Source of the DNA: Coriobacteriaceae bacterium
GTDB lineage: Bacteria > Actinomycetota > Coriobacteriia > Coriobacteriales > Atopobiaceae
NCBI GenBank assembly: GCA_003862195.1
Contig: QOUO01000002.1
Span: forward strand, 1 to 64,000
Direction of reading: 5' to 3'
Length of the DNA stretch: 64,000 nt
How positions within the stretch are numbered: position 1 is the stretch's first letter; the number at the start of each line of letters is the position of its first letter. Both the position numbers and the translations under genes were made by a program. Shown piece after piece: positions 35,687-46,988 of this stretch. The notes beneath the pieces are model-generated. The model searched no databases. It was not told the origin of the DNA and saw only the letters and a program-made list of their open reading frames with translations.

Positions 35687-35722
35687 GAGAAGGACGGCTC
35701 ACCCAAGGTGGCCGTCCTTCTC
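35687..35722 (+). terminator. Terminator after mtnP, built on the repeat motif
   Basis: GAGAAGGACGGC (35687-35698) pairs perfectly with GCCGTCCTTCTC (35711-35722), loop TCACCCAAGGTG, then CTTTAG. The 5' arm is the GGCGAGAAGGACG motif (35684 on), so the motif forms the terminator. Confidence 0.85.
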
Positions 35723-35777: not shown

Positions 35778-35863
35778 GTGCGACGATGCGACAAGACGTC
35801 CGTCGCATATGCGACATAACTTGCGTCGCATATGCGACGCTGATATCATCGCATTGTCGCGTT
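35778..35863 (+). promoter_or_regulatory. Promoter with tandem palindromic operators of the AlbA_2 gene
   Basis: Two exact copies of GTCGCATATGCGAC (35802-35815 and 35825-35838), 23 bp apart centre to centre, are flanked by half-sites (TGCGACGATGCGAC, TCGCATTGTCGC). A promoter TTGCGT-17-TATCAT (35821-35849) has the second palindrome filling the spacer. The gene is probably repressed by a protein binding here, maybe its own product. Confidence 0.75.
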
Positions 35864-42261: not shown

Positions 42262-42364
42262 TCAGTACTTATGAACTATTGCTCATGTGTTCACTTCATA
42301 CTCAAGTTCGCGTAAGCAGACCTCTGGGGTAAAGGGAACCGGGGCACAGGCCAAAGGAGACGCC

Positions 42365-44407
42365 ATGTCCTGCAAGTGCTGCAAACACGACGACGAGGAG
42401 CTCGAGTCCCACCCGGGCGCGCCGGTACACGGCGACGGCTGTGATTGCGACGGCTGCCACGACGCGGACGTCGAGCCGGAGGATGAGGACGAGGATGACG
42501 ACGATGACGAGGACCCCGCCGTCCTCAAGAGGAAGATCGCACTTTCCGCTGTCCTGCTGGTCGCGGCCGTCGTGGTGAACGACCTGGTCGCGCCCGGCCT
42601 GCCGCTCTGGGTGCAGCTCGTCACGTACCTCCCCGCCTACCTGGTGGCGGGCGGCAGCGTCCTCAAGGAGGCCGCGGAGTCCGTCGCGTCCGGCCACCCG
42701 TTTGACGAGGACTTCCTCATGTCCGTGGCGACCCTGGGCGCGCTGCTCATCGGCTTTGTCCCGGGAGGCGAGCCCCAGTTTGCCGAGGCCGTCTTCGTGA
42801 TGCTGTTCTTCCAGGTTGGCGAGCTCTTCGAGGGCCTGGCCGAGGACCGCTCCAAGCGCTCGATCGCGGACCTCATGAACATCCGTCCCGACGTCGCCAA
42901 CGTGGAGCGCGACGGCAAGGTGGTGAGCGTCGACCCCAACGACGTGCGCATTGGCGAGGTCATCCAGGTACGCCCGGGCGAGAAGGTCGCGCTCGACGGC
43001 GTCGTGACCGAGGGCGAGTCCAGTCTGGACACCGTGGCCCTGACCGGCGAGAGCGTGCCGCGCGACGTCACCGTGGGCCAGGAGGTCGCATCCGGCTGCA
43101 TCAACGTGTCTGGCCTGCTGCGCGTCCGCGTGACCAAGGCGTTTGGCGAGTCCACCGCGAGCAGGATCCTCGACCTCGTGCAGAACGCGGGCAAGAGCAA
43201 GTCCCGGTCGGAAAACTTCATCAAGCGCTTCGCCAAGGTGTACACCCCCATCGTGGTGTACCTGGCCATCGCCGTCGCCCTGCTGCCGCCGCTCTTCTCG
43301 GGCGACTTTGCCGGCACGTTTGCCACGTGGCTGCTGCGCGCGCTCACGTTCCTGGTCGCGAGCTGCCCCTGCGCGCTCGTGCTTTCCGTACCGCTGACGT
43401 TCTTTGGCGGCATCGGCGGCGCGTCCCGCCGCGGCATCCTCGTCAAGGGCTCCAACTACCTGGAGGCGCTCGCCAAGACCAGGGTCGTCGTGTTCGACAA
43501 GACGGGCACGCTCACCAAGGGCACGTTCAAGGTGACGCAGGTGCACTCGACCGACCTTTCCGACGAGCAGCTCCTGCACCTGGCCGCCCACGTGGAGGCA
43601 AGCTCCACGCACCCCATCGCCGCGGCGCTGCGCGAGGCCTTCCCCTGCGACGGTGACGACTGCAAGGTATCCGACGTGACCGAGCGCGCCGGCGAGGGCG
43701 TCATCGCGACCGTGAACGGCCACCGCGTCGCCGTGGGCAACGACCGCCTGATGCAGACGGTGGGCGCCACGCCCGTGACCTGCCACACGCTGGGTGGGAC
43801 CATCGTCCACGTGGCGGTGGACGGCACGTACGCCGGCCACGTGCACATCTCCGACGAGGTCAAGCCCGATTCCGCGCAGGCAATCGCAAGCCTGCGGGCC
43901 GAGGGCGTCGCCAAGTCCGTCATGCTCACGGGCGACCGCAAGCCCGCCGCGGCGGCCGTCGCCAAGGAGCTGGGCCTGGACGAGTACCACGCGGAGCTCA
44001 TGCCGCAGGACAAGATCGCGCAGGTGGAGCGTCTCATGGGCGAGAAGGGCGAGGACGCCACGCTCGCATTCGTGGGCGACGGCATCAACGACGCGCCGGT
44101 CCTGGCCCGCGCGGACGTGGGCGTGGCCATGGGCGCGCTCGGCTCCGACGCCGCGATCGAGGCGGCGGACGTGGTGCTGATGGACGACAAGCCCTCCAAG
44201 GTCGCCGTCGCCATCCGCATCGCACGCAGAACCCTTGCCATCGCGCGTCAGAACATCGTGTTCGCCATCGCGGTCAAGGTGGCCATCCTGGTGCTCGCGG
44301 TCTTCGGCCTCGCACCCATGTGGCTCGCGGTCTTTGGCGACGTGGGCGTGATGGTGCTGTGCGTCCTCAACGCGACGCGCACGCTCGCGGCAGGCTCCAG
44401 CAAGTAG
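42365..44407 (+). CDS. P1B-type heavy-metal (Zn/Cd/Pb-class) exporting ATPase
   Basis: 680 aa. The N-terminus has no HMA ferredoxin fold; instead MSCKCCKHDD, DGCDCDGCHD and an all-acidic EDEDEDDDDDED offer metal ligands. VASCPCALVLSVPL is the CPC transmembrane metal site. DKTGTLTKGTF is the phosphorylation site, TGES the actuator loop, HP in SSTHPIAAALREA, and GDGINDAPVLARADVGVAMG the hinge. CPC plus the absence of Cu-type N/S residues suggests ZntA/CadA type. AAAGGAG precedes ATG 42365. Confidence 0.92.
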   Translation: MSCKCCKHDDEELESHPGAPVHGDGCDCDGCHDADVEPEDEDEDDDDDEDPAVLKRKIALSAVLLVAAVVVNDLVAPGLPLWVQLVTYLPAYLVAGGSVLKEAAESVASGHPFDEDFLMSVATLGALLIGFVPGGEPQFAEAVFVMLFFQVGELFEGLAEDRSKRSIADLMNIRPDVANVERDGKVVSVDPNDVRIGEVIQVRPGEKVALDGVVTEGESSLDTVALTGESVPRDVTVGQEVASGCINVSGLLRVRVTKAFGESTASRILDLVQNAGKSKSRSENFIKRFAKVYTPIVVYLAIAVALLPPLFSGDFAGTFATWLLRALTFLVASCPCALVLSVPLTFFGGIGGASRRGILVKGSNYLEALAKTRVVVFDKTGTLTKGTFKVTQVHSTDLSDEQLLHLAAHVEASSTHPIAAALREAFPCDGDDCKVSDVTERAGEGVIATVNGHRVAVGNDRLMQTVGATPVTCHTLGGTIVHVAVDGTYAGHVHISDEVKPDSAQAIASLRAEGVAKSVMLTGDRKPAAAAVAKELGLDEYHAELMPQDKIAQVERLMGEKGEDATLAFVGDGINDAPVLARADVGVAMGALGSDAAIEAADVVLMDDKPSKVAVAIRIARRTLAIARQNIVFAIAVKVAILVLAVFGLAPMWLAVFGDVGVMVLCVLNATRTLAAGSSK

Positions 44408-44424
44408 CAGAATCCGTTGGCAGA

Positions 44425-44500
44425 GGCTCCGCCCGCCCGACTCGGTGCTCAGACAGCACGCCTTCGGCGTGAACTGCGCCCGAGTCGGGCGGGCGGAGCC
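44425..44500. repeat. Palindromic repeat element, copy 1
   Basis: A long hairpin: 21-bp outer arms (GGCTCCGCCCGCCCGACTCGG and complement), then an inner hairpin CACGCC-TTCG-GGCGTG-like. The 68-bp core 44429-44496 recurs in inverted orientation at 45716-45783 with one base different. It sits between the ATPase and the convergent YdcF gene and could act as terminator. Confidence 0.8.
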
Positions 44501-44561
44501 ATGTCGAGGGCCGTTTGCAGTTGGTTGCCGGCACGTGGCCAGGTCGACGGTGCCGCAGCCT

Positions 44562-45665
44562 CTACGCCAGGTTCGTCACGACCCAGAGCAGCACGTTGAC
44601 CGCGAGCACCACGAACGTGATCGCCGTGAACGCGCGCTTGCGCAGCACCACGTATGCCACCCACTCGCGCACGAGCGCGTTGAGCGAGAAGTACAACCTC
44701 ACGTGCGCGCCAAGGCCATCGGCCCTCACGCCGGCCTCGCGTGCAAGCAGCAGCGCGCGGAACACGTGGTAGTCGTCGCTCACCACGAGGATGCGTCCTT
44801 CTCCCCTGGGCCCGCGCGCTTCTCCCCCACCAGTCGCGGTCGCGCGGATGAGGTCGCGCGAGAAGCGGATGTTCTCGCGCGTGTTGCGGGAGCGCTCCTC
44901 GCAGAGGATGGCCTCGGCGGGAACGCCCTGCCCGAGCGCGTAGTCGCGCATAGCGCTGGCCTCGCTCACGGCCTCGTCCGGGCCCTGCCCGCCCGACATC
45001 ACGATCCTGGAGCCCGGGTTGCGCCGCCACGCCCAGATGGCTCGGTCCACGCGGTGCGCGAGCAGCGGTGTCACACGTCGGCCGTCGATGAGCCCCGAGC
45101 CAAGCGCCACAATGTAGCGATAGCGCCTCATCGGGTGCGGCACCTGCGCCACCAGGCCGCTCACCGTGTAGAGCGCAAAGGCGACGCCCGCCACGCCGAT
45201 CAGGCCCGCCGAGATGCCAAACAGCAGGTCAAGCACGCTTCCCACCACGGGCAGCCCCGTCAGGCGCCCGCGCAGCAGCGGCCACACCAGCACATAGGCG
45301 ACCATCGCCACGCCCAGTCCCAGCGAGAGCAGGTTGGCCGGTCGCGCGCCCTCGCGGCGGATCAGCCGCACGCCCGACACGATGAGCGTCACCACGAGCA
45401 CCGCTGGGAACGCGAGCAGCATGACGAGCAGGATCCCCATCACGACGAGGTTCGCCGTCTGCGCGAGGGGATGGTCGCCCAGCGGCAGGTAGCCCACAAT
45501 CAGCACCTCTATCAGCACCACCAGGGACGCCGCCCCGGCCAGCGCCCAGAAGCCAAGCCAGAGGGTGCGCTCCTCTCGCACGCGCACGATGGCAAACGCC
45601 ACCGGCGCCACGCAGAGAAGTGCTATGAGCAAGGGAAATACAGGGTCTGACGTCAAACTTTCCAT
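44562..45665 (-). CDS. YdcF/SanA-like (DUF218) membrane protein
   Basis: 367 aa. About five membrane segments in residues 1-165, then the DUF218 domain: YIVALGSGLIDGRRVTPLLAHRVDRA, MSGGQGPDEAVSEASAMRDYA, EERSRNTRENIRFSRDL and LVVSDDYHVFRALLLAREAG. A final membrane helix ends the protein. In E. coli, related ElyC/SanA act in envelope biogenesis. It is flanked by inverted copies of a palindrome (44425, 45715). Confidence 0.9.
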   Translation of the reverse strand: MESLTSDPVFPLLIALLCVAPVAFAIVRVREERTLWLGFWALAGAASLVVLIEVLIVGYLPLGDHPLAQTANLVVMGILLVMLLAFPAVLVVTLIVSGVRLIRREGARPANLLSLGLGVAMVAYVLVWPLLRGRLTGLPVVGSVLDLLFGISAGLIGVAGVAFALYTVSGLVAQVPHPMRRYRYIVALGSGLIDGRRVTPLLAHRVDRAIWAWRRNPGSRIVMSGGQGPDEAVSEASAMRDYALGQGVPAEAILCEERSRNTRENIRFSRDLIRATATGGGEARGPRGEGRILVVSDDYHVFRALLLAREAGVRADGLGAHVRLYFSLNALVREWVAYVVLRKRAFTAITFVVLAVNVLLWVVTNLA

Positions 45666-45714
45666 TTGGCCCCTCAGAATTGATGGCTAATCGTGCCCGA
45701 TTATATGACGTTGC

Positions 45715-45784
45715 CCCGCCCGCCCGACTCGGGCGCAGTTCACGCCGAAGGCGTGCTGTCCGAGCACCGAGTCGGGCGGGCGGG
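45715..45784. repeat. Palindromic repeat element, copy 2 (inverted)
   Basis: Reverse-complement copy of 44429-44496 with 67 of 68 bases identical; the mismatch is in the loop region. Located just upstream of the YdcF gene on the other side, so the gene is bracketed. Confidence 0.8.
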
Positions 45785-45893
45785 AAATTGGTGACATTCG
45801 TCATGTGGCGCGGGTGCGTCGGCTGGGCTACATTAGAGCTTCGACAGCGCGGGGCAGGGAGCCCATCGCGCTTGTCCCTTGGAAGGAGGCGCG

Positions 45894-46988
45894 ATGCACA
45901 TCCCAGAGAACTACCTGAGCCCGCAGACCTGCGGCGTGATAGCCGTGGCCATGGTGCCCGTGTGGGTGCGCGCCGCCCGGCACATGCGCGAGGAGGTCCC
46001 CCGCCAGAAGATGCCGCTCGTGGGCGTGGCCGCCGCGTTCTGCTTCCTCGCGATGATGTTCAACATCCCGCTCCCCGGCGGCACCACGGGCCACGCCGTT
46101 GCCGGCACGCTGGTGGCCATACTCTTCGGCCCATGGACGGCCTGCATCGCCATCAGCATCGCCCTCGCGATCCAGGCGGTCCTCTTTGGCGACGGCGGCA
46201 TACTCGCCCTGCCGGCCAACTGCCTCAACATGGCCTTCGTGCTCCCCATGTGCGGCTACGCGGTCTTCTCGCTCGTGCGCAGGCGCCAGGCGCGCCATGC
46301 GGGCGAGAAGGACGGCGGCTCCGGGTCCTCGAGCCTTGGCCAGGAGCTTCGCGCCGCCGGCATCGCCTCGTACGTGGGCATCAACGCCGCGGCGCTCTGC
46401 TGCGCCCTGGAGCTGGGAATCCAGCCGTTGCTCTTTCACGACGCGGCTGGGCGCGCGCTCTTCTGCCCCTACCCGCTCTGGGTGAGCGTGCCCGCCATGA
46501 TGATTGGCCACCTCACCGTGTGGGGCGCCGCGGAGGTCGTCTTCACGGTGGGGATCCTGGGCTTCGTGCGGCGCGTCGCGCCGGACTTTGGCCTCGCGCG
46601 CTTTGGCGGGACGGGGTTGGCGGGCGCCAGCGACGACGTGGGCGCGCAGCCGGCTCCCGTGCGCACCGTGCGCGCGGCGGGGCCGGTGCTCGGCCTCGTG
46701 GCGGCGCTCGCAATTGCGACGCCGCTGGGACTCATCGCCACAGGCGATGCCTGGGGCGAGTGGTCCACGGCAGACCTCGCCACGCGCGTGGGATACACGC
46801 CCTCGGGCATGGCACGCGGCTGGGAGTGGTCGTCGCTCATGCCCGACTACTCCCTCGGGGCGCTTCCCAGCTGGCTCGGCTACGTGCTGAGCGCCGTCGC
46901 GGGAGTCTCCCTGCTGCTGATAGCCTTCCGCCTGCTGTCAGGCGCATCCACGCCCAAGGTCGACTTTGGACCGCGTGACGATGACTAG
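45894..46988 (+). CDS. cbiM: Cobalt/nickel ECF transporter substrate-capture protein CbiM
   Basis: 364 aa. It starts MHIPENYLSPQTCGVIA, the CbiM/NikM N-terminus in which His2 and the N-terminal amine bind the metal. About seven membrane segments follow, with GLNxx-type loop FGDGGILALPANCLNMAFV. The C-terminal 90 residues hold a PDYSLG motif and a membrane helix, as in NikN/CbiN-like fused partners. GGAAGGAGG precedes it. It overlaps cbiQ by 8 bp. The upstream 110 bp (45785-45893) have no clear B12 or NiCo riboswitch match. Confidence 0.93.
   Translation: MHIPENYLSPQTCGVIAVAMVPVWVRAARHMREEVPRQKMPLVGVAAAFCFLAMMFNIPLPGGTTGHAVAGTLVAILFGPWTACIAISIALAIQAVLFGDGGILALPANCLNMAFVLPMCGYAVFSLVRRRQARHAGEKDGGSGSSSLGQELRAAGIASYVGINAAALCCALELGIQPLLFHDAAGRALFCPYPLWVSVPAMMIGHLTVWGAAEVVFTVGILGFVRRVAPDFGLARFGGTGLAGASDDVGAQPAPVRTVRAAGPVLGLVAALAIATPLGLIATGDAWGEWSTADLATRVGYTPSGMARGWEWSSLMPDYSLGALPSWLGYVLSAVAGVSLLLIAFRLLSGASTPKVDFGPRDDD

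Follow-up and report, generated by a model that had tools for sequence, protein, structure and literature searches.

What are two near-identical, inwardly facing hairpins doing on either side of a single gene, and how did gene and hairpins come to lie where they do? Within the window (the whole 64,000-nucleotide stretch that was analysed), the features that bear on this question are the following:

42287..44407 (+), P-type (E1-E2) metal ATPase, left neighbour (ORF and domain match)
44425..44500 (+), hairpin A, comprising a 68-mer core (44429-44496) and 4 bp of extra stem
44562..45665 (-), ydcF-type gene, an intact 367-aa DUF218 (YdcF/ElyC/SanA-type) ORF; PF02698, E 3.9e-31
45700..45705 (-), TATAAT, possible -10 box of ydcF, as read from the sequence
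45715..45784 (-), hairpin B, inverted copy of A (67/68)
45894..46988 (+), CbiM/PDGLE cobalt transport protein, right neighbour (ORF and domain match)

Architecture of the locus

One intact gene, encoding a membrane protein, sits between the hairpins; the first-pass annotation had named it YdcF, and the PF02698 match bears this out. The gene itself is an ordinary member of the DUF218 family, other members of which are linked to the cell envelope in titles and abstracts of the literature. Its base composition is not foreign, the GC content being 69.0% and GC3 88%, compared with 68.4-71.0% and 91-92%, respectively, for the neighbouring genes.

The two hairpins occupy different transcriptional settings. 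The ATPase and ydcF genes converge on hairpin A, which is, therefore, downstream of both, 18 bp past the stop codon of the former and 62 bp past that of the latter; ydcF and cbiM diverge from either side of hairpin B, which is upstream of both. As B precedes each of the genes that it separates, a role in transcribed RNA would be harder to envisage for it than a role at the level of DNA. At normal spacing, the -35 element partnering the TATAAT would fall within hairpin B, where the sequence reads GTCGGG, and, consequently, no σ70-type pair is called for ydcF; likewise, a promoter scan of the ydcF locus returned no promoter-like pair. A terminator scan of positions 44200-46100 returned no hits, and neither hairpin is followed by a T-tract.

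The 68-mers at 44429-44496 (+) and 45716-45783 (-) are identical at 67 of 68 positions after reverse complementing, as the first-pass annotation had reported, the sole mismatch (A/G) being at position 23. The likeness extends a further 9 nt towards ydcF (six of these matching), giving 77 nt at 95%, and it ends abruptly on the outer side. This near-identity fits the earlier suggestion of a recent duplication or gene conversion. No inverted repeat in the window is longer than the 68-mer pair, the runner-up in the list being 39 nt at 74%. Both copies possess the stem and inner hairpin originally described: the outer arms are perfect over 21 bp in A (44425-44445/44480-44500) and 18 bp in B (45715-45732/45767-45784), and in each they are followed by a short mismatched stem and then by an inner hairpin with the loop TTC, which in A reads CACGCC-TTC-GGCGTG. 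The predicted folds are exceptionally stable, with energies of -60.8 to -71.5 kcal/mol (z -7.8 to -9.4) as RNA and -35.2 to -42.5 (z -6.7 to -10.1) as DNA; none of 200 shuffles folded as well with either parameter set in any case. Matches in Rfam were confined to sub-threshold microRNA models for the hairpins, of a kind that reflects any long hairpin, and to a single sub-threshold twister-sister match within ydcF.

The self-symmetry of the 68-mers is only partial (42/68 and 44/68 positions match their own reverse complement), so the orientation of each copy is meaningful. Read from outside to inside relative to ydcF, the polarity is the same for both copies, as in terminal inverted repeats.

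Copy number and distribution of the hairpins

A BLAST search of the 68-mer against the draft genome of the same organism (2,422,853 bases in 155 contigs) found only these two full-length places; the remaining seven matches are partial and span at most 37 nt. Across 60 genomes (this one and 59 relatives), matches at E <= 0.1 were obtained in 20, the best of those in the relatives being partial (34 nt, E 9e-4). The stem-loop-stem pattern was found in just one of 140 family genomes, namely this one. In a collection of 84,980 species, each represented by one genome, the stem pattern recovered 10 scattered loci in unrelated phyla, each with a single palindrome, and these matches appear chance-like; plasmid, phage and viral-contig records gave none.

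A scan for hairpin pairs covered 53 stretches of the genome, amounting to 769,462 bases or 32% of it, disregarding seven of the 427 scanned hairpins whose stems of at least 549 bp were taken to be masked runs of N. Within this sample, A and B form the sole near-identical inverted pair lying within 10 kb, with a score of 66 against 26 for the next inverted pair. Forty other DUF218 loci were examined in the same light, and such hairpins flank none of them, although contig ends cut the flanks of a few; this rules out a general association between hairpins and DUF218 genes.

The corresponding site in sister species

Only two other genomes of the same genus are listed (G001 and G002), and in both the cbiM homolog (80-82% identity) comes immediately after the ATPase homolog (76-77% identity), with gaps between the matches of about 123 and 170 bp, respectively. 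The intergenic region contains neither ydcF nor a hairpin of the A/B kind in either species, and their DUF218 matches are distant ones located elsewhere (32% and 39% identity). Closer ydcF homologs are found at E <= 1e-60 in a patchy set of 17 of the 140 family genomes, including this one. The homologs in the 16 further genomes reach 61% identity, and their loci have no neighbouring gene in common with the locus described here, whereas ydcF loci within one genus generally do have neighbours in common. Given the empty arrangement in both congeners and the unshared neighbours of the other homologs, a gain of ydcF at this site is the simpler account: gene and hairpins together would represent a lineage-specific insertion at the ATPase-cbiM site, and parallel loss from both congeners appears less likely.

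When the locus was spliced to recreate the empty site, the best edges were 44420/45774 by comparison with G002 and 44480/45838 by comparison with G001; for the latter, the left edge is within hairpin A and the right edge is in the cbiM leader. The intergenic regions of the congeners are too diverged for the edges to be placed to the base. No target-site duplication can be seen, the longest word common to the 20-bp outer flanks being 4 nt.

Comparison with known systems

The locus has points in common with several described systems. Like REP/REPIN sequences and their RAYT (TnpA_REP) partners, the hairpins are palindromic extragenic DNA; however, REP sequences form a population of copies, and here there are two. 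A likeness to REP/REPIN or small MITEs had been proposed in the first-pass annotation, together with a search for a RAYT-type transposase. That search gave no PF01797 (Y1) match in the draft genome, where a gap could hide one, and matches in 5 of 14 control genomes. With only two copies in the genome, the stem pattern confined to one of the 140 family genomes and no Y1 transposase found, the proposed likeness does not hold, and REP/REPIN can be set aside. Similarly, MITEs, including the Tn3-derived TIMEs, resemble the locus in being non-autonomous and having inverted repeats, but here a full gene is enclosed, and neither dispersed copies nor a parent element were found in the searches described above; the copy number, the lack of a Y1 transposase match, the enclosure of a gene between the two copies and the lack of a visible target-site duplication tell against a MITE.

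In layout, the locus works like a mobile insertion cassette (MIC) or a similar passenger-gene element derived from an insertion sequence: in both, a lone passenger gene is flanked by terminal inverted repeats with no transposase between them, and a lineage-specific insertion would be a further likeness. The ends seen here differ in being 68 bp long and self-palindromic, and the unit is present in one copy and has no target duplication. A MIC shares its ends with an insertion sequence, and no further copy of the present ends was found in the genome, plasmids or phages; as no insertion sequence with matching ends came to light, we do not file the locus as a MIC. Invertons, too, are segments bounded by inverted repeats, but no invertase gene was found nearby, as neither PF00589 nor PF00239 has a match on contig C2.

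Integron attC cassettes also comprise a single gene beside an imperfect palindrome, one that takes up its fold when the DNA is single-stranded. In contrast to the inverted hairpins seen here, attC sites occur in arrays in direct orientation and have GTT-type core sites; the 68-mer contains no GTT.

A description of a hairpin-gene-hairpin arrangement of this kind was not encountered among the titles and opening lines of abstracts surveyed, which lay outside subscription journals and preprints.

Origin of the gene and its flanking hairpins

The account that we favour, though tentatively and at a little short of an even chance, is that the locus is a non-autonomous, single-copy insertion of one gene, bounded by terminal inverted repeats that fold on themselves. 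The data themselves establish the repeat, the polarity of its copies, its restriction to this site and the absence of ydcF from the site in both congeners. In such a scheme, a ydcF-type gene flanked by the two inward-facing hairpins would have inserted in this lineage between the P-type ATPase gene and cbiM; the hairpins would act as the terminal inverted repeats of an element with a passenger gene and without a transposase. Presumably, an enzyme acting in trans and recognizing a folded or long inverted end would have moved it, and hairpin A may now also serve as a terminator between the two convergent genes. Transposition is thus inferred rather than seen: neither a target duplication nor a mobilizing enzyme nor a second copy was found; in the draft genome, the searches returned no second copy of the ends, no insertion sequence bearing them and no Y1 transposase. 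The missing target duplication, second copy and enzyme count against the insertion, as do the unfixed edges, the 40 other DUF218 loci without bracketing hairpins and the unremarkable base composition of the gene.

The main rival dispenses with a mobile element altogether. Hairpin A would be an ordinary strong bidirectional terminator at a convergent junction, and hairpin B a local inverted copy of it that, on the arrival of ydcF, either arose through template switching or was held identical by gene conversion; we regard this as possible, if rather doubtful. The position of A shortly beyond both stop codons is what would be expected of such a terminator, the fold energies are extreme, hairpins are numerous in this genome, and the single difference between the copies preserves the predicted RNA fold (A-U to G-U). 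Yet the terminator scan was empty and a T-tract is lacking from both copies, the two genes beside B diverge, so that a terminator there should be of no use to either transcript, and the 769 kb scanned yielded no second pair of near-identical inverted hairpins. An origin in an unsampled donor, in which the palindrome is a common dispersed repeat and two copies flanked ydcF by chance, would account for the near-identity of the copies and for the patchy occurrence of ydcF in the family. This is unlikely, however, in view of the restriction of the stem pattern to one family genome, the few single, chance-like matches among the 84,980 species and the lack of any match in plasmids, phages and viral contigs.

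Inversion of the enclosed gene, which the first-pass annotation had raised, would involve recombination between the inverted 68-mers, flipping ydcF and so switching its expression. Inverted repeats of 68-77 bp situated 1.2 kb apart would indeed be suitable substrates for homologous or site-specific recombination. Against this, the likely ydcF promoter (TATAAT, 45705-45700) is inside the segment, and, as this is the only good -10 box seen, flipping the segment would move promoter and gene together and yield no obvious switch; moreover, none of the six recombinase matches in the genome (five tyrosine, PF00589; one serine, PF00239) is on the 112-kb contig C2. The same annotation held that a lack of further copies, together with a fixed orientation in all isolates, would tell against its reading: no further copy of the 68-mer is present in the genome, and no second orientation was seen, with one genome per species. 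Overall, inversion is possible but unsupported, and we consider it very improbable.

If, as the insertion reading has it, the hairpins are moving ends, the locus would be a single-copy gene cassette that is invisible to repeat finders based on copy number, and a search for near-identical inverted hairpins flanking genes that sister species lack could turn up more such units. More speculatively, and in our estimation as something of a long shot, there may be a whole class of single-gene mobile cassettes with long self-folding hairpin ends as terminal inverted repeats, which are moved in trans by an enzyme that recognizes the folded ends; being normally present once per genome, they would have been missed by repeat searches. 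If, instead, only a duplicated terminator is involved, the locus offers a tidy case of an inverted duplication flanking a recently acquired gene. On either reading, the hairpin pair stands outside the REP/REPIN world.

A dispersed motif resembling a DNA-uptake sequence

Separately from the hairpins, CGGGCGAGAAGRAC is dispersed hundreds of times in the genome on both strands. Among 10-mers, GGGCGAGAAG ranks first in abundance in the initial 279,648 sampled bases, with 105 copies, and it occurs 258 times in 757,796 unmasked bases, compared with 3.15 expected from base composition; the consensus around it is CGGGCGAGAAGRACG, with example sites at L119 13049-13084, L119 14365-14400, L117 6235-6268 and window 35687-35722. 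The exact 13-mer GGGCGAGAAGGAC is present in 136 + 126 = 262 copies in this genome, where the reversed control gives 0, and in 68 + 76 and 96 + 68 copies in the two congeners; there are 4 + 4 exact copies in the window. Across the 140 genomes, its counts are high in most members of genus g4 and few in most other genera. The core GCGAGAAG also forms inverted pairs in short hairpins, with 14 opposite-strand neighbours within 60 bp against two on the same strand. The ydcF insert has no copy of GGGCGAGAAG.

From its sequence and distribution, the CGGGCGAGAAGRACG motif looks like a DNA-uptake-sequence system, for which the Neisseriaceae and Pasteurellaceae are the cases given in the titles and abstracts surveyed; these contain no report of an uptake sequence for the present bacterial group. 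Alternatively, it is possible that the motif is a dispersed signal of another type, for example, for recombination or segregation. It is a stronger observation than the hairpin finding, and may outweigh it.

Other repeats in the genome and window

Several further repeats were seen. Among the direct repeats of the genome is an 85-nt repeated stretch in L118. An identical 36-nt palindrome, GTTGAACGGC...GCCGTTCAAC, recurs on the short contig C20 (L155 817-852, 1709-1744, 2078-2113 and 2573-2608) in direct order and with irregular spacing, and may belong to a CRISPR-like or other repeat array. A cluster of hairpins sharing GGCACAGAACCC...GGGTTCTGTGCC, several of them within 1 kb, is located on contig C65 (L123 4276-5313), with more in L122, and the window contains nested palindromes built on GTCGCATATGCGAC (35780-35860), possibly an operator. 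Lastly, a long hairpin at about 75.6 kb on contig C2 (L112 11597-11695), with a stem of 28 bp and one mismatch, comprises two copies of CCGCACTTCATGAAGTGCG in what appears to be a REPIN-like layout.
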